The translations under genes and the position numbers were made by a program. The notes below the pieces were generated by a model, which did no database searches, had not been told where the DNA came from, and was given only the letters and a program-made list of their open reading frames with translations. From Crossaster papposus (taxonomy: Eukaryota > Echinodermata > Asteroidea > Velatida > Solasteridae), in the NCBI GenBank assembly GCA_037893245.1, contig JBAIAA010000117.1:1736001-1800000 (forward strand): 64,000 bases of DNA. The letters run 5' to 3'. This document shows positions 7,944-57,700 of the stretch, one piece after another (position 1 is the first letter of the stretch; each line of letters begins with the position of its first letter).

Positions 7944-9529
7944 TTAGACAGGAATGAAGTACTCCTCAAGGCTTGGAGGATCAACCTTAAAGTACTTGGA
8001 CACCTGGGAACCATAAGCACATGTGTGAGCATTTGCTAGAAGAGTACTTACCGAGTAATATTTGGCTATTGGCTGTAGATATATTTTTTGATTCTTGTGG
8101 TAGTCCACAAAGGCAAACAGTGTACACACTTTACTGAAACCCCATTCCACACTTTCTCTTACTGATGACATCATGTAATTGAAATCATGCATCTCCTGAG
8201 TCATTGCAGCTCCCTTGAAACTAGTAATTAGGTATTCTCTGGATGCATATGCGGTATCCCCAAATATAGCCATGGTTGTGCCATTTTCAGCATGAACATA
8301 ACTGATTAGGTTATCTAAACCTGATTGGTGATACACTGCACTATCATGACGCCTGCCCTCAACAGGACCATAACAATGACCTACAATACCGTTTGGGTAG
8401 ATCAGACTCTGATATTTCAAGCCATGCCTGCGTTTATGCCCACTGAATACCTGTTCCTGATGAACTTTGGGACGGCAATTTGCTCTAAGAGTGCCATCTA
8501 TAAATGCCCAGATGTTGTGAAGGGGACAACATTTAGCTCTTATAGCATCAGCAAACACCTCTGGTCTCACAAAACCCTGGTTGATAGATTGCAGTAAATG
8601 GGCATGTTTATCATACATTTCAGCAATCATTTTATTGCTGATGATCGATATTTCTGTTGGATGCCTACCAAAAATGTGTACGCAGTCAACCAATCGGTTT
8701 GGATACGAGAGTCGTTTTAACATGACGCATAATCCTTCCAACGCTGTCCACGTGGTCCCATTGGAAGCCTTATACTCTGGTGCCAACCTCAAGACACCTA
8801 CAAGTTTTTGTAGAGTTGCCTTATCAAAGCGAAACTGCTAAATGCATTCGCTGTCAGTCATCGCCTAATATAAAACAAGAAAGACTAATGAAAATATTAG
8901 TTTTTGAATTTTTTTTTTTAAACAATGAATAATTGCAGATCTGTTTGGGCTATTCCAATGAGGGCATGTCTGATTTTATTTATAATGTTATACAGGGTGT
9001 ATCAATGATAAAGGGAATTCAAACAAGTGGGCCCATATATGTAACGTTTATCACTAGCAAAACATGTTCCCTCACTCACTTCTTTTTTTTTTTTTTTTTT
9101 TTTGGGGGGGGTGGGGGAAGGTGAGGGGGTGTTGTGGTGTTGTGGTGTTTTTTGTTTCTCATTAATTATTGTGAATGTTTCCCCATGTGCCTTTATCTTG
9201 AAACGTTAATGTTTTTAGAGTAATGTGTAGTAATATATATACAATTATGTATTTATTTTTAATTTATTTCATAGGATCCTGTAACATTGTTCTGTTTGGC
9301 CTAGCAATTAATATATAATATTCTTAATACTTTATCTTTTAGTTGATTGAAGAATGCGTGTGAAATGCGTCCAATGTGTTTTGAAATGTTTAATGTTTCC
9401 ACGTACATTAATATTGAAGCGACCATACTTCAAGTGTTGAGCCTTCTCCTGTGTGTCTTCATTGGCCAACAACAACAGAATAATATCCTCGTCGTCCAGC
9501 ACAGGATCTTCGTCATCTTGTACTAGCAT
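7944..9529 (-). CDS. PIF/Harbinger DDE transposase (HARBI1-like, two coding exons)
   Basis: Coding exons are 9529-9407 and 8837-7944 (with stop), joined in phase 0 by a GTACGT...TTTAG intron; together 338 residues. Residues 1-41 are acidic (MLVQDDEDPVLDDED). A helical segment follows (FRFDKATLQKLVGVLRL), then the DDE_Tnp_4-type nuclease core. Probable catalytic residues are D155 in AFIDGTLR, D235 in IFGDTAYA and E272 in VRESVEWGF, with the family's GRRHDSAVY motif between the first two. Length is close to HARBI1-type proteins. It would cut and join the 4.0-10.4 kb element together with the Myb-like partner. The first in-frame ATG lies inside an exon that begins at 9565, so an upstream exon near 10,190-10,330, ending CCAG|GTATGA, is probably untranslated leader. 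No in-frame stop is visible. Confidence 0.85.
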
Positions 9530-11640: not shown

Positions 11641-11925
11641 TTTAATCGAATTTTGGGGGTCTGTCAGGGGCTCCCCCTCCCAACGCTTCACTCGCCAAAC
11701 TTACACACAAAAAAACATTTCTTCTGTAAATTTGGTACCCAGCTGTATAGTCCGGGAGCCCAGCCGGGTTTAATCATAATTTTGAGTGCAAAAGTTTTGA
11801 AGCGTGGGATATGTGGGGGTGACTGGGACGACTGCAAAATGGTTTGTTTGTGTAAGTTTGGCGAGTGAAGCGTTGGGAGGGGGAGCCCCTGACTCGACAG
11901 ACCCCCAAAATTCGATTTAATTTTA
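11641..11925. mobile_element. Short TIR element (MITE)
   Basis: TTTAATCGAATTTTGGGGGT at the left end is inverted at the right end (ACCCCCAAAATTCGATTTAA). The inverted similarity runs inward for about 65 bp through GGGGCTCC and CACTCGCCAAACTTACAC. No coding capacity. Confidence 0.65.
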
Positions 11926-14201: not shown

Positions 14202-17200
14202 ATGACATCCAGGACACTAAGAGCATCGATGAAAGGTAGGCCCCGACTGCCTTTTTGTTAACAAATTTACACCTCAAACTAGAAATTAACTTCGTTATTA
14301 AACCTAAGCTTTATAATTTTTTTTAACAAGGCCTAGACCTACCGGTATGATGATGGCCTTAGGCCATGAATATGAACCCCCCCCCCCCCCTTCCTGTCCT
14401 TAGCTTAGACATATAACGTATTGTTAGGCCTATGTCTTGCCTTTATTTATTTAAACTAACATTAATGTTGGGGTTAGGCTTAAACTAAAGCAAAATAAGA
14501 AATCCCGGGTGCTCTTTCAGCATTGATCAAACTACTGAAAAGTGTTTTCAAGGTACTGTTTTCAAGTTTTGTTTTTTGTATTGGTTTTTAAATTTGTATG
14601 ACTAACATTATTTTTTTCTGCTTTCTTAAGTGTTTTATATGTGAAGTGTTCATAACAATTCTGCTGTTGGCGGCGAAAAAGACCAATATATTAATTAAAC
14701 CAATATATTATAGGCTAGGCTATGGAAAATATAATAGGCCAAGGCTAGGACATCATAAAGCTTTAGTTTTAATTTGTAAAATTTAATTATACGGCCTAGT
14801 TTAACAGTGATAAACGGCCTCTACTAGGCCTAGCCTACTATTACTAGGGCCTAGTCTAAGCATACTGTCATTAAAAAATGAAGCAATCCAGCTTTATATT
14901 TGTACAAAATCCAACAGGAAAACGATATATTTGTTTACTTTGAATTGGTTTCCTTTTTTGGTGGCAGTTGCCAAGGAGTCGCTTGTGCTGTTTGACAGCG
15001 ATGAAAAAACAACAATTGTGAAGACCAGTGCACTGCATTTTCATGGGCCTCCACAAAACATCAAGCCCGGTTCGGCTGTTAGCATACATTGGGGGGGATG
15101 AGCTGCTCAGTGCTAAAGTGCTTTGTTTGTCAGGTAAGCTAAATTAAATTGCATATGATCTGAAAACAGTTTTGAATGTGTATTACTGAAAGTATTAGGC
15201 CTTGGTCAATGTTACAGATTGCTACCGGTATGTTAAACAAATTACTTTTGGGATTTGGTCACTGGCTCTGTGTTCTTGTCGAGCAAGAATTAAATAAAAC
15301 ATTTAATTACGTAAGGCCCTATATAGAATTCAAATTTATTGGGGAAACAACATTGTTCCCAAAAAAATCTAAATTGGCATTTTGAGAATATTTTGAGAGT
15401 ACAAGATCTCTCTGAAAATTAAAAAACAAAACAAAAAGGGCCTCCGCCTTCATGACGCTAAACATGTTTGTTTTTTATACAAACTTATACAAACTGCTTT
15501 TAGTCTGTGGTGCCAAACAAAATTAATTGTGTGCACAAACCCATGCAACAAAGCTCCTCATTTTGTCCTTTCTTAAAGTATCATTTAAAAAAGAAATTTG
15601 TATGCAAATTAACACCAATTATTTAGTATATAGACTACAAAATCTTGCTGTCATAATTGTCTGCCATTACATGTTATGTTCTAGGGCTCTAAATTGTTTT
15701 AGCAATGTCAATTTAGATTATAGGTGTCAATATTATGAGCATTACCACAAAGTTTTTGTTTTTTATTATTATTTTAATAATGCGATATTGTATATCATTG
15801 CATGATATACAGCATACCGGCACATTCTCACAATACAGGTTAAGTGACTCAAAGTTAAACTGTATATTTTAATAGTCCAGTCAAAATACATAATTTTGTA
15901 TTGTTGACCTCAAACAAATTGCAACAGATTGTTTTTCACCACAGTGCACTTCTATAAGGTCCCTAGAATGACATACTAAAAATCTACAAAAATCCAAGTG
16001 GTGGAAATATGACTAATTTGCATAAATCGTTAATCCCTGCCGCGTAATATATGTATTCCCATATTTGGGTATATATATATATTTTTCATTTTTTGAAAAG
16101 TTTATTTTGGTGATTCTACTTACATATCCTTACTTTAATAACATTTGCTAAATCATATAAGTCACCAGTAAGCAACTTGGTGAATTTGAAGCTCACCAAT
16201 ACTGACTACTTGATGATATCTGGAGACAGTGTAATGTGCACACATTTATAGGGTCACGAAGTTGTAATTTTTGATAATTACTATGTTCTCATAATTATTC
16301 AGTCACTTATATGATTTAGCAAATGTTATTGAAGTAAGGATATAAGTAGAATCACCAAAATACACTTTTTTTTTAAATAAAAAAAATATATACCCAAATA
16401 TGGGAATAATAATATTACGCGGCAGGGATTAACGATTTATGCAAATTAGTATTATTTCCACCACTTGGATTTTTGTAGATTTTTAGTATGTCTTTCTAGG
16501 GACCTTATAGAAGTGCACTGTGGTGAAAAACAATATGTTGCAATTTGTTTGAGGTCAAAACGTATTTTTCCTAGACTATAAGTGATTAGACCCAATTAAA
16601 GGTAGTATACACCATTGGTAATTGCTCGATTTATCAGGAATGGGTGGATTTGGGGGGTTGTATTTTATAGTAAATATCATCTAACTAACCTGTCCGAAGT
16701 TTTACAATCATGATTGCCGAGAAAAACACAAAAAACAACGTTTGTTTTCAACCGGCGTTACCAGTTATTCTTATGTTATTTGTGTTTTTTCGAAAAAGTT
16801 TTTTTTTTTTAAATTATATTTTTCAGAATAACTAAAGTATATCTAGCGCAATCATTTTGCTGGATGCCTAGAATCATTATTTACTTTCAGATGAGTAAGA
16901 TATTTCTTAATAATTCGGTAGTAATTTTTTTTCTCGATATCTGCAAATGGTGTATCCTATCTTTAAGGCCCCAAAAAGTTCTGCTTCCGGTTACATGGCA
17001 TTTAAAAATAGGGTATGTATCGGTAGAAAAGAATTTTTGGGTGAATGCAGTCAAGGTGCAAGGTACCGGTAGTAGTAATTGATGGTTTTGGTAGTTCTCT
17101 TTTATATCATCTAACTAACCTGTCCGTTTTACAATCATGATTGCCGAGAAAAACAAAAAAAACAACGTTTGTTTTCAACCGGCGTTACCAGTTATTCTTA

Positions 17201-20357: not shown

Positions 20358-20691
20358 ATTTGGCCTTATAATATCGGAACCTTAAAATCAAAACATCTTT
20401 CTGAAGAAAAATTTGTCATGGTCAGAGCCCAATAAAAGTCGAAACACAAAATTAAATCCAAAAATTCAAAATACGAAAGTAAGAAAAACAAAATGACCAG
20501 TTTTATACTTCACCCAGAGAAAAAAATTGTCCATGGAAAAAATAATATAAATATTTCAGTAACTACGCCAACCAAAATACAAGCATTCCGTTATTAATTA
20601 AATTATATTAAATTTATTTATTATTCTGTGCCAATTCATGCGCGGTAAAATAATCTCCTGCAGGCCTGACTGCATACCTTGGTATATTGTT

Positions 20692-22604
20692 TATAGTCCA
20701 GTCAAAATATCAAATTTTGTATGGTTGACCTCAAACAAATTGTAACAAATCTTTTTTCATCACAGTGAACTTCTATAAGGTCCCTAGAATTACATACTAA
20801 AAAATATTTAAAAATCCAAGCGGTGGAAATATGTCTAATTTGCATAAATCGTTAATCCCTGCCGTGTAATATGTTTATTTCCATATTTGGGTAGCCTATA
20901 ATTTGCACGCATTTACCTTGTCTCCAGATATCATCAAGTAGTCAGTATGGACAAGCTTCTAATTCACCAAGTTGATTACTGGCACCGTTATTCTATTAAA
21001 ACCTTATGAAAAATCATTATGAACAATGATAACATTGTGATATTTAGCCCAGCAAACAACAACTGGGAAAAATCGTTTGTCCATACATTGGGCTAAAAAG
21101 AAGATGAAGGGTTACCTAAGGTGAGAGACTTGAACAAGTTCAAGGAAACCCCCCAAATTAAAGATGTTTGTTGCTTACAATAATCATATCTACATGTACG
21201 TTAGAATGTATTTTGAGAATTTTCCTGAACTTGTTCAAGTCTCCCATGTTAGGTAACCCTTTAACTTCTTTTTCGCCTAGTTTATAAACAAACCATTCCC
21301 CCCAGTTTTGGTTTGCTGGGCTAAATATCACAATGTTATCATTGTTCATATGATTTTCCATAAGGTTTTATTATGATAACTGTGCCAGTAAGCAACTTGG
21401 TGAATTTGAAGCTCACCAATACTGACTACTGGATGATATCTGGAGACAGTGTAATGTACGCACATTTATAGGGTCACGAAGTTGTCATTTTGGATAATTA
21501 CCATGCTCTCATAATTATTCAGTCACTTATACGCTTTAGAAAATGTTATCGAAGTAGAGCTACGTGTCATTCATGAGAAATCAGGCTCACCTGCCATTTT
21601 GCAGTTATTTTTCACGGCGCATGAACTGGCACATCGAAGAACTTTACTTGAAGGGCGGGGGGCTAAAGCTCTGGGTAACCACGTAGAGGGTCCACTTGGT
21701 GATCGCCTTGACTTTGTAAAGGATAATTTTTTCAGATCGAGCCTAGGAGTGCCGAAGCCTGGAAAAAGGCTTGTAAGGCTATTGATGCCTCAGGCAGAAG
21801 GCTGCTCATGAAGGAGCTCCTTCAATAAAATTTGAGCTGTAAAATATAAAGAAAAAGTGAAAACATCTTTGTTATTGTTAGGCCAAATATAAAAAAAAAC
21901 ATGTTTAGCGTCACCGCCCGCTTTCTTTTTGGAGGCCGCGTCCTTTTTTTTTCTTTTTGAAAAAAATCATAAATTTGATCATTTTGGTAAAAAAAATTTT
22001 TTTTTAAAGATAATAAAATTTTAAGATCGTATTTTAGACTTTAGCATCACTGTGTACATGTTCTGGAAATATTTTGTTTCCTTATAGGAAGGCTATAGGG
22101 TGTAGTCGTGTACGGTGCATACTTGATCGACCCACATGAATTTGAATGTTTAAATTCATTTTTGGTTTGCTGGGCTAAATATCACAATGTTATCATTGTT
22201 CATATGATTTTCCATTAGGTTTTATTATGATAACTGTGCCAGTAAGCAACTTGGTGAATTTGAAGCTCACCAATACTGACTACTGGATGATATCTGGAGA
22301 CAGTGTAATGTATGCACATTTATAGGGTCACGAAGTTGTCATTTTGGATAATTACCATGTTCTCATAATTATTCAGTCACTTATACGCTTTAATTTTTTT
22401 TAAATATATTACATACCCAAATATGAGAATAAATATATTACGCGGCAGGGATTAATGATTTATGCAAATTAGTCATATTTCCACCACTTGAATTTGTTAA
22501 GACTTTTGATATGTTATTGTAGGGACCTTTTTAGAAATGCATTGTGGTGAAATTTGTTTTGTTACAATTTGTTTGAGGTCAAAACTTATTTTGACTGGAC
22601 TATT
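20692..22604. mobile_element. Rearranged foldback element containing a BEN gene fragment
   Basis: Left end TATAGTCCAGTCAAAATA and right end TATTTTGACTGGACTAT are inverted copies of the family seen at 15,872. The centre is palindromic around 21,170 (GATAACATTGTGATATTTAG against CTAAATATCACAATGTTATC). The right arm is present twice (about 21,310-21,550 and 22,168-22,395). The duplicated 3' end of the BEN gene lies between these two copies. Confidence 0.7.
21556..22153 (+). pseudogene. Duplicated 3' end of the BEN gene
   Basis: Matches 19,583-20,195 at high identity, covering the last ~95 codons, stop, AATAAA and part of the downstream TIR element. Small deletions disturb the frame near the start (around GCCATTTTGCAG) and at DNFFRSSL, so it would not encode a full BEN domain. 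It has no splice acceptor or promoter. The left junction is at GAAGT|AGAGCTACG, which resembles the source's GTAGAAGAGCTACG, so microhomology may have guided the join. Confidence 0.8.
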
Positions 22605-23140
22605 ATATTGGCTTCAGTCAATGTTTTATTATGCCCTACATACAAAAAAACTGATACAGAGCCATTTAGAATAATTATAAAACAGTATATTGCAGTTTGT
22701 AAATTGTGATTCGAATTGAATTATGAAGCACTAATATTGTAAATCTTTATTTCTTGTCAAAGCTTTTTTGAATATAACTGAGAAAAAGCAAACTTCCCAA
22801 AATTGTATAAGACCAATGCATTATATTACAGAGTTGAGGCATATATCAAATAAAATCTTATTTCCTGCTTTTTCTGACCAACTGTAAAATTGAAAAAAAA
22901 AACATTTTTAACACATCAGACTCATTTTTGCAGAGTGGGTCACAAATGTGACCTGTCACTACAAAATGAGAGTAAAGTCGCACGATGTGATTTGGAAATA
23001 TGGCCATCAAAATTCAAAATATGAAGGGGTGGTCAATTTTGAGATTTTGCATATTCCCATTTTTTGGGCGAGATCAGATAATCGAAAACCTCTTAAATTA
23101 CGTGATTTTGAGTCAATTAGTGGTCTAATTAACACAGTAA
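22605..23140. other. AT-rich noncoding stretch
   Basis: No gene seen. A GTCACAAATGTGACCTGTCA word near 22,929 resembles the end of the MITE at 39,328 but no partner end is visible. Confidence 0.4.
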
Positions 23141-23148
23141 ATAAATAT

Positions 23149-23615
23149 TGGTGCTGGGCGAGTATCTCAAGTACTCGTGATCAGTTTTTTCTACTTGTAG
23201 CACTACTTGCATTTTAACTAGTCGATTACTCGTGCTAGCCCGAGTAGCAATAAATACTTGCGAGTAGTGATTGTTAGCAAGCGATGATTGTTGACAAGTA
23301 CCGATTAAGTGGTCAGTCTCTACTACTTTACTCATGACAATTGCGATGGTTTTAAGATATGATTTTTATTGATTTTCAATTCTAACTTGAGCGATAAAGG
23401 AAACAAAATTGCAGCAGAAGTCGCTGTGAAATTACTGTTATGCTTTGAATGAAAACACAAGGTGATAAACACATGTGTGACTGTCATACATGTATGTGTG
23501 ACTGTCATTTTACCCCTTGTGAAAAATGTTACAACTACTCGCGAGTACTCGATTACTCGCGAGTCATTTCATTGTGAGTACTTGAGTGGGAAAAATCACT
23601 TCTCGTCTAGCACTA
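23149..23615. mobile_element. hAT-type MITE with 8-bp target duplication
   Basis: Ends TGGTGCTGGGCGAG and (inverted) TAGTGCTAGACGAG. An exact 8-bp direct repeat ATAAATAT flanks it at 23141-23148 and 23616-23623, as expected of hAT elements. The interior is rich in ACTCGCGAGTA palindromes near both ends and has no transposase. Confidence 0.8.
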
Positions 23616-23623
23616 ATAAATAT

Positions 23624-24735
23624 GCCAATCAGGTGCTCGTAAGTTTCCGATGTTTTTGAAATTTTGAGATTGTGTTGTTTATACAATAGTTGGTATGTGT
23701 GGAATATTTCAAGAAGTAATAATGATTAGAACATGGCCAATGCTATGATCAACCGAACCTTACTTGTCCTGTTTTGTAATCTTTTGCGTGATTTGTTTAA
23801 GATGTTTAACCCTAACTCCCTCACCATTGTTATTGAACAATACAATTCCTTCAAAATCCTCCAACTTCCTTTGTTGTGTAAGGAGTTAGGGTTAAAGTAA
23901 ATTTTCACACAACACGTTATGTGAAACACATGTCTTTCTAGAGCGCTGTCAAAAGTATTTATCGAAAAAAGAAACAAAAAGTGTTTTGTACCATTGGAAA
24001 GCTCTCTTTCTCAAGAATTTGAAAATACAAATATCTTAATTTTCAATTTTCAATAGTAGTACATCATTAACGTTTATTTCCTGAGTTTCAGCACACTTTA
24101 TTTGATAACTAATTGGATGTTGGTGCAGTTGTAACATTTTATGTGGACAAACCTTATGTTTAGTAAAATAAGTGCTATCGTTTTATTTCTGTAAATTTGT
24201 GAATAAAGAATTGAGTTTTGTGGAAAATGAGTTTCAAAAACTGACAACTCCTTGCTTTTAATGTAAGAGTGCATGGGAAAACTTATAGTTACTAATTTAC
24301 TAAACTTACTCCTGTTTTGCGAACACTTGCAGCACGATTTGGACAAAAGAATTTGGGGGCAAGCAATGGGTCCACGATTGACAGAAGGTCCAAGATTCCA
24401 AATCGTGTACAAATCCTATGGAGGTCTTCAGAAAAAATACAAACAAACTAGAGGGATAATGGGAGGACAATGTGGGGTCCACGATGGAAGGTGTGTGTTC
24501 TAGCCTCCACCTAGTTTTGGGGACAGGTTCTTTTGTTTGAAAAAAACAGACCGAGTATAGTGGGGACATTTTCAAGTCCCCATAGCGCGTTGGGTCTTCA
24601 GATGAAGACAAATTAGGGTGTGGTTAAAAATTTCAGAATTTTTGAGCGTTTTGAGTTTGAGAATATTAGAGAGATTTCCCTCAGCTGCCCCGACATCGCA
24701 ATTTTCCAAAAGAATTAATGTGTGTGTACATGAGT
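23624..24735. other. Noncoding stretch
   Basis: Apart from the small TTAA element at 23,806, no supportable gene. Overlapping short frames between 24,100 and 24,780 on both strands have no recognisable domain. Confidence 0.45.
23806..23895. mobile_element. 90-bp TTAA-CCCTAAC mini-element
   Basis: TTAACCCTAACTCC and GGAGTTAGGGTTAA are perfect inverted ends with TTAA at both edges. The ends match the insertion at 57,666-58,136, a piggyBac-like signature (TTAA then CCCTA). Confidence 0.65.
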
Positions 24736-24738
24736 TAG

Positions 24739-25028
24739 TCTTGCATACGCACTGTGGACCTCCGAACAATATAGGTCCACACGATGCGGGAAGAGGTTAC
24801 GGTGTGTGGACTTGCACACGTCCACAATCCGTTTTTCAGTTTCCGAAAAAGAGCGCTAGAGGAAAAACGGGTTAGGGTTATATATAGAAAAGATAGAAGG
24901 GACAGCTGAGAGGCCCATAATCCTAATTTGAGGGTAAATTTGTTTTGGGGAAGCGAGAAAAATGAGTATTTAGTCAAAGTTTGTTAACTACACGAATACA
25001 AAGGAATGTCCACAGTGCGTATGTAAGG
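24739..25028. mobile_element. TIR element, ~290 bp
   Basis: TTGCATACGCACTGTGGAC and GTCCACAGTGCGTATGTAA are inverted ends with one mismatch. No coding capacity. Confidence 0.6.
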
Positions 25029-25610
25029 TAAAGCTAGTTGTGTGCACAGGCATGTGGGTGTACAAACAGTGCACATTGTACATGTACACGAAACCATGTA
25101 CGTACAATGTGTGTATACGTGTACATGTACACTGTACATTGTACAGTATGTATACCGTATGTCTCAATGTACGCCCGACTCGGTGAAGTCGGAGTACATA
25201 ATAGTGCCGCAGGCCGGCTTCTCACACCTAGCTGTACCTGACGGCGTGGCAAATATTTCTGTGTATGGACATATGTATGTCCTCGACAGAGTGTTAAAAG
25301 AAATTATGTACTTTGTTGTCCGATTTTAATATGAAAATGTTGCTGATAACATTTATTAATTCCAGAAGAAAAACAAATCTATTCCTTATTCCTGCGTGAT
25401 AGGCCCAAAAAGACAAATTGAAATAAAAACCCAGAGCCAAGTTCAATTTAACAATTCAAAATGCTGAAAGTATAGGCCTAAAAGAGTGGCAACAAAGTGC
25501 CGTTTAGTTTAGACAAATATAATGGACTAGAGCGTTTTTTCTTGATTTCGATAGTTGGCAAAGTAGGTCTAATAAAAACGCGAAACAAACGCGATTGAAT
25601 CATTAAATCG

Positions 25611-25679
25611 CGATGCAAACGCGATTTTACCGCGACAATTTGATATATAAATACCGATTTACACTCACCTTGCCATTCT
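25611..25679 (+). promoter_or_regulatory. TATA-type core promoter of the Tc1-like transposase
   Basis: TATATAAAT at 25644-25652 lies 29 nt before CCATTCT (25673-25679), which resembles the PyCATTCPu cap-site motif of invertebrate histone genes except in the last base. The ATG follows after only about 25 nt. ATGCAAAC at 25612-25619 is one base off the octamer, and GCGAAAC/CGCGATT words lie just upstream. The parts suggest a compact histone-like promoter; this is inference. Confidence 0.4.
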
Positions 25680-25699
25680 GCGCTAGTCCCCTGTTCGTC

Positions 25700-26716
25700 A
25701 TGGCACGTTACAGCGCGGCCACTCGTCGTCGCATCGTGCAGCTGAATGCCCGAGGCCTGTCTGCTAAGGCGATACAAGCTGACCTTCTTTGTAACGGTTT
25801 GAATGTTTCCAAGAGTGGCATATGTAAGTTCTTAAAGAAGGTGCGGGGGACTAGATGTCTTAGTGATCTGCCAATCGCTGGCCGCAAAAGCAAAATTACG
25901 CTTCAAATTCTTGACATCATCGATGGCGAGCTTGAGCGCGACAATGAACTTAGAGCGCAGGACCTGCAGGACAGTATTCACCGGGAAACCGGTGTCAATA
26001 TTGGGCAGTCCAGCATTCGGCGGGCTGTTGCAAAACTCGGATGGGTCTCGAGGGGTACACAGTACTGCCAGCTCATCCGAGAGGCCAACCAGCCCAAACA
26101 CCTTCAGTTTGCGCAGCGGTGTCTTGATAACCATGACACGTTCGATGATGTCATCTGGTCAGACGAGAGCTCAATTCAGCTCGAGCGGCATACCAAAAAG
26201 TGTTTTCGAAAATTGCACCAACCAGCTGTCCTCAAGGGGAAACCAAAACACCCGCTGAAAGTCCATGTTTGGGCAGGGATAAGTAAGCGAGGGGCAACAG
26301 CTATAGGGATTTTCGACGGCATTATGGACGGAAATTTCTATTCCAACACTATTCTCCGTCGTTGGCTGCACCCGTTTCTGACCAGAAATTTTCCTTTTGG
26401 CCACCGTTTTCAACAGGACAACTGTCCCACTCATTGTTGTGGGGAAGCGCGGCGCGTTATTGCAGAACTAGGTATAAATTGGTGGAACACTCCGGCAGAA
26501 AGTCCCGATTTAAATCCGATCGAGTCTGTATGGACAGAGCTTAAAGGCCACTTGAGAAGGCACGTCAAACCGTCTACCAAGGAGCAGCTCATTCAAGGCA
26601 TCCGTAATTTCTGGAACACCAAGATGACACCTGACAAATGCAGGCGCTACATCAACCACCTGCACAAAGTGATTCCAGCCGTAATCCAAAGGCGGGGAAA
26701 GGCGTCAGGGCACTAG
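25700..26716 (+). CDS. Tc1/mariner-type transposase, uninterrupted
   Basis: 338 residues, close to the ~340 of Tc1 transposases. The start at 25700 is chosen because MARYSAATRRRIVQLNARGL begins the paired-like helix-turn-helix and lies downstream of the TATA box; the frame is also open upstream. Residues 1-120 form two helix-turn-helix DNA-binding parts with a GRKSK linker. The nuclease core has D155 (VIWSDESS), D240 (FQQDNCPTH) and E275 (SPDLNPIESVW), with 34 residues between the last two, the DD34E spacing of Tc1. No introns or stops. I could not find terminal inverted repeats within about 350 bp on either side, so this may be a transposase gene without its ends, or one whose ends are diverged. 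The 3' end carries a histone stem-loop, listed separately. Confidence 0.92.
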   Translation: MARYSAATRRRIVQLNARGLSAKAIQADLLCNGLNVSKSGICKFLKKVRGTRCLSDLPIAGRKSKITLQILDIIDGELERDNELRAQDLQDSIHRETGVNIGQSSIRRAVAKLGWVSRGTQYCQLIREANQPKHLQFAQRCLDNHDTFDDVIWSDESSIQLERHTKKCFRKLHQPAVLKGKPKHPLKVHVWAGISKRGATAIGIFDGIMDGNFYSNTILRRWLHPFLTRNFPFGHRFQQDNCPTHCCGEARRVIAELGINWWNTPAESPDLNPIESVWTELKGHLRRHVKPSTKEQLIQGIRNFWNTKMTPDKCRRYINHLHKVIPAVIQRRGKASGH

Positions 26717-26734
26717 CCAACAAAAAACCAAAAC

Positions 26735-26750
26735 GGCTCTTTTCAGAGCC
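26735..26750 (+). terminator. Histone mRNA-type 3' stem-loop
   Basis: GGCTCTTTTCAGAGCC is an exact copy of the 16-nt stem-loop of replication-dependent histone mRNAs: 6-bp stem GGCTCT/AGAGCC and loop TTTC. It is preceded by CCAAAAC and followed by ACACC, close to the consensus flanks that SLBP reads. It lies 18 nt after the transposase stop codon, a normal histone-gene distance. No histone reading frame is nearby. Confidence 0.85.
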
Positions 26751-26757
26751 ACACCTG

Positions 26758-26766
26758 CAATAAAGA
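26758..26766 (+). promoter_or_regulatory. Histone downstream element-like sequence overlapping AATAAA
   Basis: CAATAAAGA differs from the sea-urchin histone downstream element CAAGAAAGA by one base. It begins 7 nt after the stem-loop, where U7 snRNA would pair. The same substitution creates a poly(A) signal AATAAA at 26759-26764. Confidence 0.6.
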
Positions 26767-26769
26767 GAT

Positions 26770-28490
26770 AAAAACTCATGTCTACATCACAATTTATCGT
26801 ATGAATTTATTTTGAACAGGTACACGATACTAACAATTATTGGGCCTAGTATCAATTCGTGATAAACGATTGACGGTCGAAATTTGTTTGTAGTGATAGG
26901 CCTAGGCCTATATCATTTACAACATATAAAAAAACTAAATGAAATACGGAACATAAACACCTACCGTCAACGATGGCATATGAAGAAAAACATCCTCTTG
27001 ATATTTGACAAGATATTTATCCACGATGAAATCATGAACTGTTTACGAAGACTGCCCTGTTTCGTATTGACCGGTGCTCTGATCTACATTAATACACGTA
27101 CACATGCCCAGGGGTGTATGTACATATATACAATGTATACACATACTTGAACACGCACATCCGGTCCCTGGACGCTGAAAAACAAAATACAATCTAGAAC
27201 GAAAAGTGCAAAGCCCCTGATATGATATGACCTTTTGTTTATGTCCTGATTTCTGATTTTGGGCATGTATTAGGTTTTTTTATTTATTTATTGTTTTTTG
27301 AACAAATTATACATACAAAGAGAAAAAATGCAAATAGTCAAATGTTTCGTCTACGCATACCCCATTAATTGTGACCTTGACGTGTACTGGGGTTTAAATA
27401 ATGCGCAGCCCCCACCCGCCCCCGCCCCCGCCCCCACCAGGATTTTACAATTTAATTTGCGGAATATATTAATTTGTTTTTTTTTGAGGTAGTATTAGTT
27501 CGGTAAAATATACCATATATTTCACCCAAATGTACCCTCTCTTAGAATGAATTCCTCAAGGGTTTTGAAAAAGGCTGATAATATTCTTGAATATTAAAAT
27601 AAAATAATACTATAGTTTACAGAATGGCAAAAAAACTAAACGTGTACCCCCCTAAAATAAAGTGCAGACCCCCAACCGGTTTGGGCTGCCCTGGACGCGT
27701 ATATTTTTTGATAATTATCATAAATAGGCGGCTCTATAGACCCCTCGCCTCATAATTATTCAGTAGTTTTAACAATGACGCTAATATATTGTTCTTGCTC
27801 GTTCAACTACGTACGTAGCCAAGAGGTAGCTGCGGTGCATGTAGACTTCATGACAAGTCTTTAGACTGTAGTGGTTGTAGTCCACCAGCGCCGCCAAATA
27901 TCGTCATGCATAGAAAATCCGCATGCCGCAATTCATGCAACGTTCGTATAGCTAGCGCGACATGTTCATGCAACAGTCGCGTAGCGCACGATGTCCCAGT
28001 TATAACGACTTGACTCAAACGTACGTGACCGAATATTCATATGTGCAGCTACTTTGCATATGCAACACGTTTTCATAGAGAGGACCAAAGATAGCGCATC
28101 TGACTTCTTAGAAATGAATTAAATAAAGGGCCTAATATTTCGATCTTAACAAGATCTTCTTCAGAGACATGACTGTGTACAAGAAACAAACATATATAGG
28201 GCAACATGCAGCATGATGCACATCATAGATAGCGAAAGAAACACAAAATAAAAAGCTTAGAAATGATTTATTATAAGTATATGGGTTATTTGCATTACGA
28301 TCAAGTTAAGCTTTGGTTTGATCTGGCAGTTTTGATTCTAATATTATTTTTTTTACAAATTATTACTTTGTGGACAATTTTAGTAGTTTTGTGACTGTCC
28401 TTTAAATACAAGAGATCAATACTTAGTTATCGAAATAAAACTTCTAGGAATACTGTTGAACCCCTTACAAAGAATGAAGTGTGGGCCAGT
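26770..28490. other. Noncoding stretch with a C-rich microsatellite
   Basis: No supportable gene. A CCCGCC-type tract at 27,410-27,438 is the only clear simple repeat. Confidence 0.5.
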
Positions 28491-28497
28491 TGTGAAC

Positions 28498-28874
28498 TTA
28501 AAGGTAGGATACACCATTTGCAGATATTAAAAATATTTACTACCGTTATTAAGAAATATCTTACTCGTTTAAAAGTAAATAATAATTCTAGGCATCCAGC
28601 AAAAAGATTGCGCTAGTTAGATATCCTGTAATTATTCCGAAAAATTGAATTTTATAAAGAAAAGTTTACGATCGCCGGACGGCGATCGCGAAAAAACAAA
28701 GATAACTGCTCGACGCCGGTTGAAAACAAACGCTGTTTTTCTTACTTTTCTTGGCATCCTTGATTGTCAAACTTCGGACAGGTCAGTTAAACGATATTTA
28801 CTATAAAATATCACCCCCAAATGTACCCTTTCATGATAATTCAAGCAATTACCAATGGTGTATCTTACCTTTAA
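28498..28874 (-). mobile_element. TTAA-flanked MITE, copy 2 (inverted)
   Basis: TTAAAGGTAGGATACACCA to TGGTGTATCTTACCTTTAA with TTAA at both edges. Read on the - strand its interior (CAACCGGCG, CTGGATGCCTAG, TTACTTTTAAACGAGTAAGA) follows the order of copy 1 at 16,596. Confidence 0.75.
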
Positions 28875-29508
28875 ACTCCTTTTGCTCAATGTGATTTATC
28901 GCAGTTTTACATGTACCCCGGAAAATAAACTCGTTCACAGTGATTTTGTCATAAAATGTATGTCAACAAATATAACCTCTAAGTTACTGCGATCAGAGGT
29001 CGACAGAAGCCGTTTTTCAAAGTGCTTTAGTTGTACATGTTAGTACTTCGACACAAGCAGTGCATTCATTTTAAAAAATGAGGACGGGTGACACGACATT
29101 ACAGCTATTTTGCTGTAGTAAAAAAATAGAAAACACAATTCACTTGTTTTATTAGAAAACATTTATTTCTCATATTTCATCATAATAATCGTACTTCAAA
29201 GTCACTTACCAAGCAACTTACCCGTTTTGAAAACTTACCGCTGGAAAAAATCAACTTACTGCCGGTAAGTGGGTATAACGTTAGCCATGGTCACACTGAT
29301 GGCCTAGGCGAGGCAACAATTCTAATGCTAACGTTAGGCTACCGTTTTTAGGACGATAGCTCCAATGCAAACTTCCAGACGTTACTCCCAGTGGCTATTG
29401 TTACGGCAGTCGGCCTTTTTTTGACCCGACACTATATTTTAATTGACAATAAATGTTCAATTTAGATTGATTAGTCGGCAGCCATAAGACCATATCGCAA
29501 ATAACGCT

Positions 29509-29618
29509 GCCATTGTGACGTCGAAGTGGTCACAAGGGAATTGTGAAAAGGAAAAAGCAGCAAACATTCGCCTTTTCATTCCCACAATCCCTTGTTACCA
29601 CTGTGACGTCACAATGGC
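29509..29618. repeat. Inverted repeat carrying CRE-like sites
   Basis: GCCATTGTGACGTCGAAGTG and CACTGTGACGTCACAATGGC pair over about 48 bp per arm, including AACAAGGGA blocks, with a short A/G-rich loop. The right arm holds TGACGTCA, the full CRE palindrome. Confidence 0.6.
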
Positions 29619-29825
29619 GGGGTTGTTTGTGATATTTACCCAACTGTAACTGTTGGAATACGAACATTTGTGTTGGGCGGAAGTCACTAAAACTAACCAG
29701 TGTAGCGGTTCTTCTTGTTGTATTTTTCAAGAAACTTATGTACCCAACCCGGTATTCCCTTCAGCCTTGTTCTACGATTAAAATAACCCATAAGAACATT
29801 TGTAGAAGAAAACGACAAACGTTAA

Positions 29826-29892
29826 CGACAGTCGGATTCGAACCACAGACCATTCGATCTATAGCTCTTCTCTTTACCAACTCTATTGGCGA
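29826..29892 (-). repeat. tRNA-like head of a SINE or tRNA pseudogene
   Basis: On the - strand, TAGAGTTGGTAAAGAG (A-box-like) is followed 36 nt later by GGTTCGAATCC (a perfect B box). The remainder does not fold into a clean cloverleaf with an acceptor stem, so a tRNA-derived SINE is more likely than a functional tRNA. Confidence 0.45.
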
Positions 29893-29899
29893 GTTGGTT

Positions 29900-32800
29900 G
29901 AGGAAGCCGTTTTTTACACATGTAATTCTTTATAGTTCTTTACGTTATGAGTTGCCTCTTTCTCATGAATATACGTCACGCACCACCCAGCTCCTATAAA
30001 AAGAACCGAACGGCTACACCGGTTAGTATTAAGTGTCTTCTGTGTTGGGCGGTTTATGTGCCCCCCAAAAAGCGTATTAACTTTGTTTGTTTATTTACAG
30101 TGCAGAGGACACTGTTGGGGTCAGGTTCGCGCAGGGGTTCTTTCCTCGATATGTGGATAGGTTTTCAGTCCCTGCCTCTACCTGATTCTTTTGGTTTCCC
30201 CCCAGAATTCATGTCCCCGAAGGTGTTAACATATCATATACATGTATAATCACAGCAGTCGACATCCGTTGTTATATCGTGCAAATAAGTCGAAAAGCCT
30301 AAGAGCAGTATCATTGTTACTTACTTAAGAAACAATTATAACAAATAATATGTTTCGAACAAATAACGCGGTCAAACACCTGGTCGACTGTTATTTCACT
30401 GCTACCATTATAGTTAATTAGATCGTAACAGCTAGGTGACAATTGCGTGGGTACCAATGATACAGCTACTATCATCATCATAGAAAGTAGCGCACATGTA
30501 ATAACACATTAGGAGTGGGCTATGCGTTTTTATAAATCAGATATTGTAATAGTTCTAGGAAAACTAAATTACAGTATCCAAGCACACGATATAGCAGTAC
30601 TTATTCCTTATGATATGAAGAGTAGACCCAAACTAATTAGTTTCCCCACCAAATTGTTCGAGGCCATTAGTGTTCAATGCTTGTGTTTAAGTTGATCTGA
30701 GCAGTTGTTAATTGAGTGTGGCAGGAAGATCATAGTTTCGTCAACAGATTCTTCACATTCGACCCTGCTGGTCTGTACGTGGGATGTTGACGGTCCTTCA
30801 GTGACAAAAGCAGATGTGAAAAAATGAAGCGGTCATGACTAGTTGAACTTATAGGATACTTCCGGGGAGGGAATGTGTTCTTGGATATTGCGTCTTCAAT
30901 CGGTTTGTATCCGTTGTGTTGTATGCTCTAGTGATGTTAGGAAACTCTCCAGTGTTCGTCCTTGTTACAGTTCTTGTACGTCATGCGGGCAAGCGGTCGG
31001 TCGATATAAGCCTTGATCCTGGGGCGAAGAAATGTTGATGCCCGGCACACACATACGTGAAATGTTCCCTGCGGAATGAGATGCTTTTTCAAACCTCCGT
31101 TGTGGTGTTCCAATAAATAGCACCATCTACTGGATGAAGCCACAGTTGTTAGGCAGTCGTTGCCGGGGTGCTCATCACCGGAGTAGGTGTTAGGTGGAAC
31201 TCAAATGTTAAATTTAAGTAATGATTCAGAAAACGGCGATTATGATTCTCGACGAAGTCTGCATGGTGAACATGTTAGTTATAACGACAAACAAAAAATA
31301 GCAATGGTGACTTGATCAACAGTGATCATTGAAACTGTGAACAAATCAGCGAAAATGATATTAACCATTAAAAACGAAACCATGAATTAAGATACTTACT
31401 TACGAACTCGATCAATGAGGAAAACAATGACTGTATGTGACGACTCGGGATTTTCTGTGGCCATCCTAAAGCCGTTGTTAGAAGGATCATACAGTCCATG
31501 CAGTAAATACGCGACACGTACGGACCACGTACGACACTGAGCGCGAAACCAGAATGTGCCACACGCGCGCACCAATAACATTTCATAGATTGTAACGATC
31601 CACATGAGACGCAAACGCGCAGCTTCAAATTGGTAATGGTTTGTGCAGCAATTTTGTTTGATGTGGGACGTGCAACACAGTGTCATATCATACTGGTTGT
31701 TGCCATGGATCGACCAATTAGAATCGATGATTCAAGTTTGCTTGAAGATAATATTATATTTCATTTTATTTATTTTATTTTATTAGGATACGAGGCAAAC
31801 GATCGTTGCTTGCGTGCCCATAATCCGAGCAGGATGTATCGGTCTCAACAAGACCAATGTGAACAATGTTAGTATAAAATGTGAAGTCAATAAACTCAGA
31901 ATTTAATTAAATTAAAGCAACGGTTACAAAAAGAGAAAAGTACGAGTCCTTGAAAAAGCAGACTCTCTGAACATGTTAGAGAAATTAGATGAACTTAGAA
32001 ACGGCTTCAAATTGAAGCAACCATACAAAGGGAAAAAAGACAACGATAAAGACCAATACATGTAAAACCATTTTAGTAAAACAATAAACTCAAAATCGGC
32101 GGGAAAGTGAAATTAAAAATAAAGAACAACGATGACCCGTGTATCGTGACCATTTAAGTAAACGATCGCAAAAACATGCGGTGGCTACGATGACTACGTA
32201 TATGTGTGGTGAAAGTCATTGGGAAGTAAAACTCAACTAAAAATTAAATCATGATTAAATTTAATTAAAATAAAGCCGTTAAAGGGACAGCTCAACGTTC
32301 GCATTGTAAACTGTAAATGCACATTAAATGAAATAAATGACACACTTACTTTTCACGAAGGCACCTTACGAATGAAAAACGAAAAATAGAAAATAACGTT
32401 ACACACTCAGGGTTCGACCTTAAAGGTGGTCTGCTAGCCAAATTCTAGTCAAAACAGCGGCGGTCTAGTGAAAAAATGCCAAGATAAGCCTAAGCGCACG
32501 CATCTTGAAAAGACCAACATCAAAGCATCAGCACCGCTACACCACTTCCCCAGTGACAGATTGTTATCCAATCCTGAAGTCCAGTTAAAAATATCTTCAT
32601 TGCTATTTGGTGTTGACTTTCTTCTTTAACCGCAGACTTTCTCTAACCACAAAGCGCTACTCAAAGAGTTACTTTACACCAACCCTTGCCAGGCAGATAC
32701 AGAATTTATTTAAAAGGCCCTGGTCGGTGTATTTCTGGAGCGAATTTATTTATCTCTAGACCCAACCGATGGTCATTAAATTGGCTGTAAGTAATTTTGC

Positions 32801-34180
32801 AAAAGTTTGCCGTACTTATTTACAAAATGTATTAAGATGTACAAATAAAAAGGTTATATTCCTAAGGTTAATTATGTTATTGTCCTTGTTTTTAAAGAAA
32901 GAAAAAAAAAGAGAAAGGATACTTAAAGACTTGTTTGAATGAACTTCTAAAATTTCCCCAACCGGTTCGGTGAATGTTTTTAAAAGCTAGCTTTGTAATT
33001 TACGGGCCACGAAATAGATCGTTTTTGTTAAATACAAGAAAAACGGAAAATAAATCGTATTAAATTTCCCCCTTAAATCCGTCTGAAAAATGTTTAGGAA
33101 CTCAACATTGTAGGTGTTAAGGTCCCATTTCTTCTTTTTTCTTTTTTTAACAATGAAACCAGAAATAAATATTATTAAATAAACCTCTGCTGGGAGAACT
33201 CCCCGATCCTTTTGGAGCCTGTCAATAAAAACCTATTCTTCACAGTCATCAAAGCTAAACGCCGGCTCCATATCGCCTGGGCCGGTTTCCTTTGATTTAT
33301 TTAGCCATTCAAGAACGAGTCATCGGGGCTATGATTGGTTATTCAATAATAGAAGTTGTCTTTGAAAGGGGTCAGAATTACTAGCCGCGGACAAAATCAA
33401 AGGGTGGGACGTTGATAAAATTAGTACATGTATAGCGGGCAAAAGCAAAGGGTGTGGCGCTTGGGAAAGAAGAAGATTGTGTTTGCACGTGGTGTCTGAA
33501 AATTGCGTAGCTGACAAAAGCAAAGTCAGACGATGAATAGTTTAATGTGGGATGCGCTCGTTGATCGCGTAGCTATCTCGGTCAGATTTTTCAAACAAAC
33601 AAAAGTATCCCAATAACTGGGTGTATGCCTAAATAACACAACAATTACACATTAGGCATTCCATTTTAGGAAAGTAAACTAGAAAAAGATTGCAATGAGA
33701 ACTCGTATAGATCTGAACACTAGATTGATTTAATTAATGCATTGATAACGCTGCGGTAAGGCCACGTTTTGCATCGCGGCAACAATCGCGTTTCAATCGC
33801 GATTACACAAATCGCGTTTCAATCGCGCTTTAATCGCCATCAATTGAGAACCCCCAGACACCTGAAAAAATATCATGGTTGCGCAAATCGCGATCCGTCC
33901 ACTTCGTTTTGATTTTAACGGTAGGTCCACATAATGTACCAGGCTATATCAACATACTTCTTCAACAAATCTTTGTGAAACTTCTCTGTAAAACTGACTT
34001 TGGAGTCTTCACTATCAACTTCACTGTGTGCTCCTAAAAGCTTCCAAACACTTTGAGATAACAATGTTATTTCAGGATTACACAAACTCAGTCAACATAT
34101 TTGATCAAATTGTGAGTTCTTGTTATTTGTTTGCATAACAATTTGTTAAGTTGAGAATGCTGATGACATGTTGATTTTAG
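29900..34180. other. Long stretch without a supportable gene
   Basis: No domain-bearing frame seen on either strand. I looked for the missing 5' exons of the SAMD3-like gene here and found none. Near 33,755-33,850 there are repeated ATCGCGTTTCAATCGCG words resembling, in inverted form, the CGCGATT words upstream of the Tc1 gene. Confidence 0.4.
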
Positions 34181-42537: not shown

Positions 42538-42542
42538 TAAGC

Positions 42543-43192
42543 CCCTGGCCCCGGCACACCCCTGGCCCCGGCACACCCCTGGCCCCGGCACACCCCTGGC
42601 CCCGGCACACCCCTGGCCCCGGCACACCCCTGGCCCCGGCACACCCCTGGCCCCGGCACACCCCTGGCCCCGGCACACCCCTGGCCCCGGCACACCCCTG
42701 GCCCCGGCACACCCCTGGCCCCGGCACACCCCTGGCCCCGGCACACCCCTGGCCCCGGCACACCCCTGGCCCCGGCACACCCCTGGCCCCGGCACACCCC
42801 TGGCCCCGGCACACCCCTGGCCCCGGCACACCCCTGGCCCCGGCACACCCCTGGCCCCGGCACACCCCTGGCCCCGGCACACCCCTGGCCCCGGCACACC
42901 CCTGGCCCCGGCACACCCCTGGCCCCGGCACACCCCTGGCCCCGGCACACCCCTGGCCCCGGCACACCCCTGGCCCCGGCACACCCCTGGCCCCGGCACA
43001 CCCCTGGCCCCGGCACACCCCTGGCCCCGGCACACCCCTGGCCCCGGCACACCCCTGGCCCCGGCACACCCCTGGCCCCGGCACACCCCTGGCCCCGGCA
43101 CACCCCTGGCCCCGGCACACCCCTGGCCCCGGCACACCCCTGGCCCCGGCACACCCCTGGCCCCGGCACACCCCTGGCCCCGGCACACCCCT
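42543..43192 (+). repeat. 17-bp GC-rich minisatellite, ~38 copies
   Basis: Unit CCCCTGGCCCCGGCACA repeats about 38 times with essentially no divergence. Because 17 is not a multiple of 3, all frames stay open and yield long Ala/Pro/His or Gly/Pro/Cys artefact frames on both strands. Near-perfect identity indicates very recent expansion. Confidence 0.95.
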
Positions 43193-54700: not shown

Positions 54701-57700
54701 ATGTTGTTATCTGCAGGTATGCTGATCATCCTGTACATGATACAGTCACGTAGAATGAACATCACGGTAGAATGAACTTGCTTAGGCAGATCATTAAGGT
54801 AGACGACGAACAGGGCCGGACCCAAGACGGTTCAGAACTATAATGCATTCTTGTTGGCAGCATTCGTGTTTTAGGACGGGCCTAAACAAACAAAAGGGGC
54901 CTTGTTATTCAAACAAAACGGAGAGTGGACCCTCAAATGAATTGTAGCGCCTTGAGCAGCGTGTGAACTTAGGCGGTCGGCAGCCTCGCGGCACGTTTCT
55001 TTAATAGTGCTCGCCGGCTTCGAGTGCAGTCTTTTGAACGCCTTACGCGTGGAAATGACGCGCATTGTTGTTTAGCATCAGGTATGATGAAATGGTACAG
55101 CTATGATGAAATGGTACAGCTAGTACCCTTTTTATCACAATAGAACAGCCCCAAAGACAAGCCCTCATGCTGGACGGCTCGTTGAGTCTGTTTTTGTAGG
55201 GGGACAATGATCTCATGAATATTCTTATAATGCACAAAACCAAAACAATCTGTGATTGGACAGCGCCCTCTTGTGTTTTAAATTGGACAATAGATTTCCG
55301 GTTTTAGGCATATACTGAACAGCCATGTTTGGTGGCACGTATAATGCAAGAAGGCGCGACCGACTGTCAGTCGAGTTGTACTAAAATGCACAATTTTACG
55401 CTAGACTAGCGTGGTTAAGATCCGTCGGAGGACGGGCCTCCGCATAAGAGAGAAACAGTGCATGGATGGGCCCTGTGTGTTCAATTGTAATCTAACATGG
55501 TTAAGATAATAGGTTTTGCAGCGGACGGGCCCTGCGTTTTGGATTTTAATCTAGTGTAGTTAAGATCAAAGGATGAGAGATACTAGTTATAAGTTACGCA
55601 GCAGACGCGCCCTGTGTGCTGAATTTAAATCTTACATATTGTTAAGATCAGACGATCAGACGATAAGAGAGAATATAAGTTATGCAGTGGTCAGGTTCTG
55701 TGGGTTTGAACTTAAATCTAGCAATGGTTAAGATCTAAGCATAGGGGAGAATAGAAGTAACGCAGTGAATGGGCCATGCGTGTCGGAACGTAATTCTAAC
55801 ATTGTTAAGATTACAGAATAAGAGGTAACAAATGTTGCGCAGTGGATGGGCCCTGTGTGTTAAATTTAAATCTAACAATGTTAAGATCTTAGGTTAAGAT
55901 AGAATATAAGTTCCGCAGTGCACGGGCCCGGTGGGTTGAATTTAAATATAACAATGTTAAGATCATAAGTGAGAATATAAATTCTGCAGTGGGTAGGCCC
56001 TGCATCTTGAATTTAAAACCAACATTGTTAGGATCAGAGGATATGAGAGAACAAAAGTTACGCAGGGGACGGGCCCTGCGTGATGAATGTTTATCTTACA
56101 TGGATATCATCAGAGGATAAGAGTACATAAAAGTGACGCAGTGGACAGGCCCTGTGTGCTGAATTTTTAATGTACATGTAACATGTTTATTTTTAGATCA
56201 GAGGTGGGGCCTCCGCGTGAGAGGCAATAGAAATTCCGCGTGGACGGGCCCTGCGTGTTAAATTTAAATGTATCTGATTAATTTCAGAGGACGGGCTTCT
56301 GCATTTGAGTCATAAGGAGTTCCGCCGTGAAAGGGCCCTGCGTTTTCAATTTTGAATTTAACTGATTAAGATCAGAGGTCGGGCCTCTGCATTTGAGACC
56401 AAACAAAAAAGTTCCGCAGTGGATTAGGCCCTGCGTCTTAAAGGTGGTATACACTATTGGTAAATGCTTGAATTATCATGAATGGGCGAATTTGGAAGGT
56501 TGTATTTTATAGTAAATATCTTTAAACTGGCCTGTCCGAAGTTTACAGTCATTAATGCCGCGAAAAGCACGAAAAACAGCGTTTGTTTTCAACCGGCGTC
56601 GAGCTGTTATTCTTATGTTAGTTGTGTTTTTTCGCGATCAATTTGCTGGACGCCTAGATCTTTATTTACTTTCAGATGAGTAAGATATTTCTTAACAATT
56701 CGGTAGTAAATGTTGTGTTTTTCTCTCTCCATATCTGCAAATGGTGTATCCTACATTTACATTTTAATGTAGCTGATTAATTCAGAGGACGGGCCTCTGC
56801 ATGAGAGACAAAAGTAGTTCCGCAGTGGATAGGCCTTGTGTGTTAAATTCGACCGTGTATCGGGTTAAGATCAGAGGACGGGCCTATACATGAGAGACAA
56901 AAGTAGTTCTGCAGTGAATAGGCCCTGCGTGTTAAATTCGTATGTATCGGATTAAGATCAGAGGACGGGCCTCTGCACGAGAGACAAAAGTAGTTCCGCA
57001 GTGGATAGGCCTTGTGTGTTAAATTCGACCGTGTATCGGATTAAGATCAGAGGACGGGCCTATACATGAGAGACAAAAGAAGTTCCGCAATAGATAGGCC
57101 ACGCGTGTTAAATTTGAATGTAACTAATTAATTATTCTGAAATTATTCTCATGTAGGGACATGAGACAAAATAAGTCTCACAGTGGATATGCCCTGCGTG
57201 TTAAATTTTGAATTTAACTGATTAAGATCAGAGGACGGGCCTCCGCATGAGAGACAAAAGTGTTCCGCAGTGGATAGGCCTTGTGTGTTAAATTCGACCG
57301 TGTATCGGATTAAGATCAGAGGACGGGCCTCTACATGAGAGACAAAAGAAGTTCCGCAATAGATAGGCCACGCGTGTTAAATTTGAATGTAACTAATTAA
57401 TTATTCTGAAATTATTCTCATGTCGACACGAGAGACAAAATTTGTCTCGCAGTGGATATGCCTTGCGTGTTAAATTTTGAATTTAACTGATTAAGATCAG
57501 AGGACGGGCCTCTGCATTTGAGACAAATAGAAGTACCTCAGTGGATAGGCACTGCGTGTTAAATTTTGAATTTAACTGATATGATCAGAGGACGGGCCTC
57601 TGTATTTGAGACAAATGGAAGTTCCGCAGTGGATAGGCCCTGCGTGTTAAATTTGAATTTAACTGATTAACCCTAACCCCCTAGGCTTTACTCTGGGCCG

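Follow-up and report, generated by a model that had tools for sequence, protein, structure and literature searches.

The window analysed here is a stretch of 64,000 nucleotides of the Crossaster papposus genome (contig JBAIAA010000117.1), with a G+C content of 39.7% and many repeats. On its forward strand, an intact open reading frame (ORF) of 338 amino acids plus a stop codon was found at positions 25700-26716. An in-frame ATG at 25613, upstream of the main start ATG at 25700, would extend the frame to 367 amino acids. Pfam detected a DDE_3 domain in this ORF (E = 2.8e-15), and a search of the PDB with E-values up to 0.1 gave Sleeping Beauty SB100X as the sole match (E = 6.7e-17, residues 125-336). 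The NCBIfam IS630 model matched residues 9-307 (E = 9.4e-26), its score of 90.9 bits being below the cut-off of 100. Pfam matches to helix-turn-helix motifs in the N-terminal region were weak and below the cut-offs. The catalytic residues D155, D240 and E275 show the DD34E spacing, and a DDE/D domain with this spacing places the protein in the Tc1/IS630/mariner group. All the domain matches, which span residues 9 to 336, lie in one open frame with no intron. The ORF reads as a complete Tc1/IS630-type transposase, in agreement with an earlier note on this DNA that had described an uninterrupted DD34E transposase. No second copy of the transposase was found within the window. The single-sequence AlphaFold2 model of the protein was unusable (mean pLDDT 44.7), with values of 72-87 by block in the first 50 residues. 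Since the ORF encodes a transposase, it was not filed as a histone gene. A tblastn search of the window with five histone queries showed no histone coding remnant, the best E-value being 1.1; the same note had stated that no histone frame is near.

Downstream of the stop codon TAG (26714-26716), a spacer of 18 nt (26717-26734), which includes the A-rich 5' flank, leads to a histone-type 3' stem-loop, GGCTCTTTTCAGAGCC, at 26735-26750 on the same strand. The stem-loop has the exact sequence of the histone element, with a 6-bp stem and a 4-nt loop, and is followed by ACACC and then by TGCAATAAAGAGATAAAAAC. The flanks, AAAAC on the 5' side and ACACC on the 3' side, are close to the consensus but inexact in the alignment to RF00032. 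In an Rfam search of the window, RF00032 (Histone3) matched at 26730-26774 with 34.5 bits and an E-value of 3.2e-6 over 4227 families. This was the sole match in the window that reached a gathering score, and the margin was small, 0.5 bit above the gathering score of 34. The locus shows one mark of the replication-dependent mRNA class, a stem-loop of at least the RF00032 gathering score, on the same strand and soon after the stop codon.

The significance of the stem-loop was evaluated in several ways. The strict histone consensus occurs once over both strands of the window, at 26735-26750, where 0.013 occurrences are expected from the base composition of both strands; for the 100 nt around a particular stop codon the expectation is 1e-5. 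When up to 3 mismatches were allowed on both strands, 26735-26750 was again the single site, with 0 mismatches; the same setting gave at least one site in 33 of 100 shuffles. Against a 22-position consensus including the flanks, the letters of which agree with the Rfam consensus line, the site scored 19, compared with 15 for the runner-up places elsewhere. Among 200 shuffled windows the top score was 17, so that none of them reached the score of the site. The predicted fold of 26714-26800 contains the hairpin (z = -2.53, equalled by 3 of 200 shuffles).

A putative histone downstream element (HDE), CAATAAAGAGA, lies at 26758-26768, with the purine core AAAGAG at 26762-26767, starting 12 nt 3' of the stem. 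The HDE of histone pre-mRNA pairs with U7 snRNA, and AAAGAG is the purine core of the mouse H2a HDE, according to PMC7026596; the match is to this mouse core, which may not be the complement of the U7 of the host. At 8-20 nt from a random point, AAAGAG is found with a frequency of 0.0045 on the forward strand and 0.0040 on the reverse strand of the window, and of 0.0056 in the local stretch 26750-30000. A poly(A) signal, AATAAA, overlaps the putative HDE at 26759-26764, 43 nt past the transposase stop. The earlier note had mentioned neither the AAAGAG element nor the overlap with AATAAA. As regards the HDE and cap site of sea urchins, a literature search for CAAGAAAGA together with histone gave no relevant paper. 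By analogy with histone pre-mRNA (PMC6303110), the cleavage region would be located at 26751-26757, about 5-7 nt past the stem. Taken together, the stem-loop and the AAAGAG core have the appearance of a complete 3' end of a replication-dependent histone gene rather than of a lone hairpin.

On the upstream side, the word TATAAATA at 25646-25653 is a weak candidate for a TATA box, and CCATTC at 25673-25678 may represent the transcription start, which would give a leader of 25 nt. A leader as short as those of histone genes is suggestive only, and the histone-like promoter reading of TATAAATA and CATTC is weak, because a TATA-like word with CATTC at such a distance occurs six times in the window (four on the forward strand as two overlapping pairs, and two on the reverse strand). 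CGCG words, together with AATCGCG/AACGCG repeats, are clustered at 25577-25632 and at 33774-33845, and the two clusters are 74% alike in one blastn match. The former adjoins the possible TATA box on its upstream side. E2F sites were considered for this upstream cluster and rejected, TTTSSCGC and GCGSSAAA being absent there.

The arrangement of stem-loop, spacer and U7-type purine element, in this order, behind the single transposase copy suggests histone-like processing of the transcript. We consider it somewhat probable that the transposase gene is built with a replication-dependent histone 3' end, and that its mRNA would be processed by SLBP and U7 snRNP with polyadenylation as a possible fallback. 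The locus resembles replication-dependent histone genes in the sequence of the stem-loop, in its closeness to the stop codon, in the downstream AAAGAG core and in the lack of introns. It differs from them in that it encodes a transposase, that no histone cluster was seen around it in the window and that the flanks of the stem-loop are inexact.

In the proposed mechanism, SLBP, the presence of which in this species is assumed, would bind the stem-loop in dividing cells, and U7 snRNP, assumed likewise, would pair with CAAUAAAGAGA. CPSF73 would then cut a few nucleotides past the stem, to give an mRNA of about 1.08 kb that ends near 26755 and has no poly(A). Histone mRNAs of the stem-loop type occur in S phase and are degraded once replication ceases. 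The transposase mRNA would similarly be present in S phase and decay once replication stops. Where the SLBP/U7 machinery is scarce, the overlapping AATAAA may yield a polyadenylated form. Jumps from replicated to unreplicated DNA, together with repair from the sister, are a known route of copy gain for a transposase that acts during replication. If the gene belongs to a cut-and-paste element, a transposase made while the chromatids are copied would favour a gain in copy number; if the gene is domesticated, the product may be a DNA-binding or DNA-cutting protein of S phase.

If a family of DNA transposons uses this mechanism, it would add to the replication-dependent mRNA class the first protein-coding member that is not a histone. 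Its message would be largely unseen in poly(A)-selected RNA-seq, in which such genes can be missed. With such a locus it could also be tested directly if the 3' end of the mRNA sets the S-phase timing of a transposase, be it selfish or domesticated. Pogo-type transposases that bind PCNA are similar in linking a DNA transposase with replication, but the link there is between proteins, whereas here it would run through the mRNA 3' end. We know of no described Tc1 element with a histone-type 3' end. A literature search for SLBP or the histone stem-loop together with transposon or transposase gave no transposon with such an end among the matches listed, as judged from titles and the beginnings of abstracts in a collection with few subscription papers. 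One of these matches, PMC8857922, deals with H2B variants.

The nature of the gene, mobile element or host gene, was considered separately, and the RNA mechanism proposed above would be the same in both cases. With the Tc1/mariner element Sleeping Beauty, the protein shares the DD34E domain, aligned to SB100X over residues 125-336, and weakly a helix-turn-helix-like N-terminus. The locus differs in its histone-type 3' end and in that we found no convincing terminal inverted repeats around the ORF. When the near flanks were aligned with gaps, a TACATGTA-rich match was the sole outcome, and 11 of 200 shuffles equalled it; with wider flanks, 54 of 200 did so. TA-flanked ungapped inverted pairs at 20, 26 or 30 nt in 22700-29700 were matched by 35 to 59 of 60 shuffles. 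TA-flanked terminal inverted repeats, the mark of a mobile Tc1/mariner element, were therefore not recognised in 22700-29700, nor were they among the gapped pairs.

We also estimated how long such repeats would remain detectable, with a model of neutral substitutions and no indels. Perfect 30-bp repeats passed beyond detection at about 0.2-0.3 substitutions per site, where the probability of an ORF without stop codons from substitutions is 5e-4 to 1e-5. At 0.15 substitutions per site, the repeats would escape detection with a probability of 31%, and the probability of a stop-free ORF is 3e-3. The readings that remain are selection on the ORF, the loss of one end by deletion, and short or unusual repeats. 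The transposase ORF has a ratio of observed to expected CpG of 0.89; the values are 0.33, 0.41 and 0.53 for three further long ORFs, and 0.88-1.26 in the surroundings (25-29 kb). The high value of the ORF as a sign of a host gene was dropped, because the DNA around it is just as rich in CpG.

The stretch 12000-40000 contains 37 longer inverted pairs, and some among the 25 longest listed flank the ORF on both sides. One of them is formed by two copies of a repeat, 80% identical, at 16596-16967 and in reverse orientation at 28497-28874. A larger element bounded by this pair is possible. A further copy at 56438-56759 on the forward strand suggests that the repeat, of about 380 bp, is a dispersed one; it starts near TTAAAGGTAG.ATACACCATT, and its copies, the other two being 16596-16967 on the forward strand and 28497-28874 on the reverse strand, are 73-80% identical to one another. 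The repeat resembles one of echinoderms, and some oligonucleotides in the window are also similar to echinoderm ones.

The absence of convincing terminal inverted repeats makes a domesticated gene about as likely as a mobile transposon. We give close to an even chance to the possibility that the ORF is a domesticated single-copy host gene rather than part of a mobile element. It would account for an ORF that has stayed intact where neither a TA-flanked inverted pair beyond the shuffles nor a significant gapped pair is found, a combination that neutral decay of the repeats would rarely leave. On the other hand, short or imperfect terminal repeats are conceivable, as is their loss together with one end, the model still gives a 31% chance of missing them at 0.15 substitutions per site, with 3e-3 for the stop-free ORF, and the oppositely oriented repeats at 16596-16967 and 28497-28874 may bound a larger element. 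The earlier description of the locus as a Tc1 transposon with a histone 3' end thus holds for the Tc1/IS630-type transposase and for the histone-type end, and lacks support as to mobility. That a DNA transposon family took over the histone mRNA 3' end, and would express its transposase during replication from a poly(A)-less message processed by SLBP and U7, is a possibility that we put forward tentatively.

Another explanation is that the locus is an ordinary polyadenylated transposase gene, the mRNA of which ends by means of the AATAAA at 26759-26764, the histone-like signal being a relic or unused. Tc1 elements normally make polyadenylated mRNA, and this AATAAA, 43 nt past the stop codon, may act as a poly(A) signal of the ordinary kind. 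An exact stem-loop and an HDE core in the right order would, however, be hard to explain if they were unused. In human H2AC18 and H1C there is a similar overlap between AATAAA and the 5' portion of the HDE, and in H2AC18 the two processing complexes are mutually exclusive, according to PMC9756948; these are histone genes with tested processing, whereas processing of the present transcript is a prediction. The histone mRNAs of C. elegans have their ends 3-6 nt beyond the hairpin despite a nearby poly(A) signal, as stated in PMC1924863. Because the overlap is known from working histone genes and because of the C. elegans case, the AATAAA is no argument against histone-type processing. We therefore regard the ordinary polyadenylated gene as unlikely. 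The overlap does make a polyadenylated transposase mRNA possible, as for H2AC18, and the earlier prediction that the mRNA would lack poly(A) is weakened to this extent.

It might also be supposed that the transposase was inserted beside a histone gene, or replaced it, and that the histone gene owns the 3' end, which would explain a complete histone 3' signal without any selection in the element. We judge this to be very improbable, since none of the five histone queries gave a coding match that would indicate a truncated histone gene at an insertion site, the 18 nt between stop codon and stem leave no room for a terminal repeat, and the ORF ends at the natural end of Sleeping Beauty, the alignment reaching residue 336 of 338. 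A chance hairpin, which the earlier note had considered unlikely, is very improbable, for although each strand of the window contains 75 perfect hairpins of a 6-bp stem and a 4-nt loop and many features were scanned before the stem-loop was chosen, the RF00032 E-value over all Rfam families and the shuffled windows oppose it, the HDE core is present in addition, and position and strand both fit.

Relatives of the transposase were searched for in other collections. In IMG/VR, the search with the protein gave 20 pattern matches and that with the transposase-Sleeping Beauty alignment 58 matches, with no relatives among either; the same alignment gave 39 matches and no relatives in the GTDB genomes. 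Plasmid matches were found in 30 records, all with less than 60% identity. Ten listed of these 30 show 23.7-27.2% identity, and the annotated ones are named transposase or IS630.

As a control, the stem-loop itself was searched for in the viral and prokaryotic collections. In IMG/VR, one stem pattern gave no stretches and the other 6, and in the GTDB genomes the pattern of the stem with its 5' flank gave 5. None of these 11 loci (6 from IMG/VR and 5 from GTDB) passed RF00032. Three of the five GTDB loci (L008, L010 and L011) have T tracts soon 3' of the stem, like bacterial terminators.

Other features were observed in the rest of the window. The ORF at 7944-8723 on the reverse strand (259 amino acids) matches DDE_Tnp_4 (E = 1.4e-20) and probably encodes a Harbinger-type transposase. 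A long hairpin at 11659-11897 is similar, on either strand, to the mir-395 model, with 36.9 bits against a gathering score of 56, and is likely to be a palindromic element. A long inverted-repeat element at 15904-16558 has arms of 183 nt that are 94% complementary, and several partial copies of it lie in 20682-22605. At 42542-43192, a perfect minisatellite repeats the 17-bp unit CCCCTGGCCCCGGCACA in 38.3 copies with 100% match.
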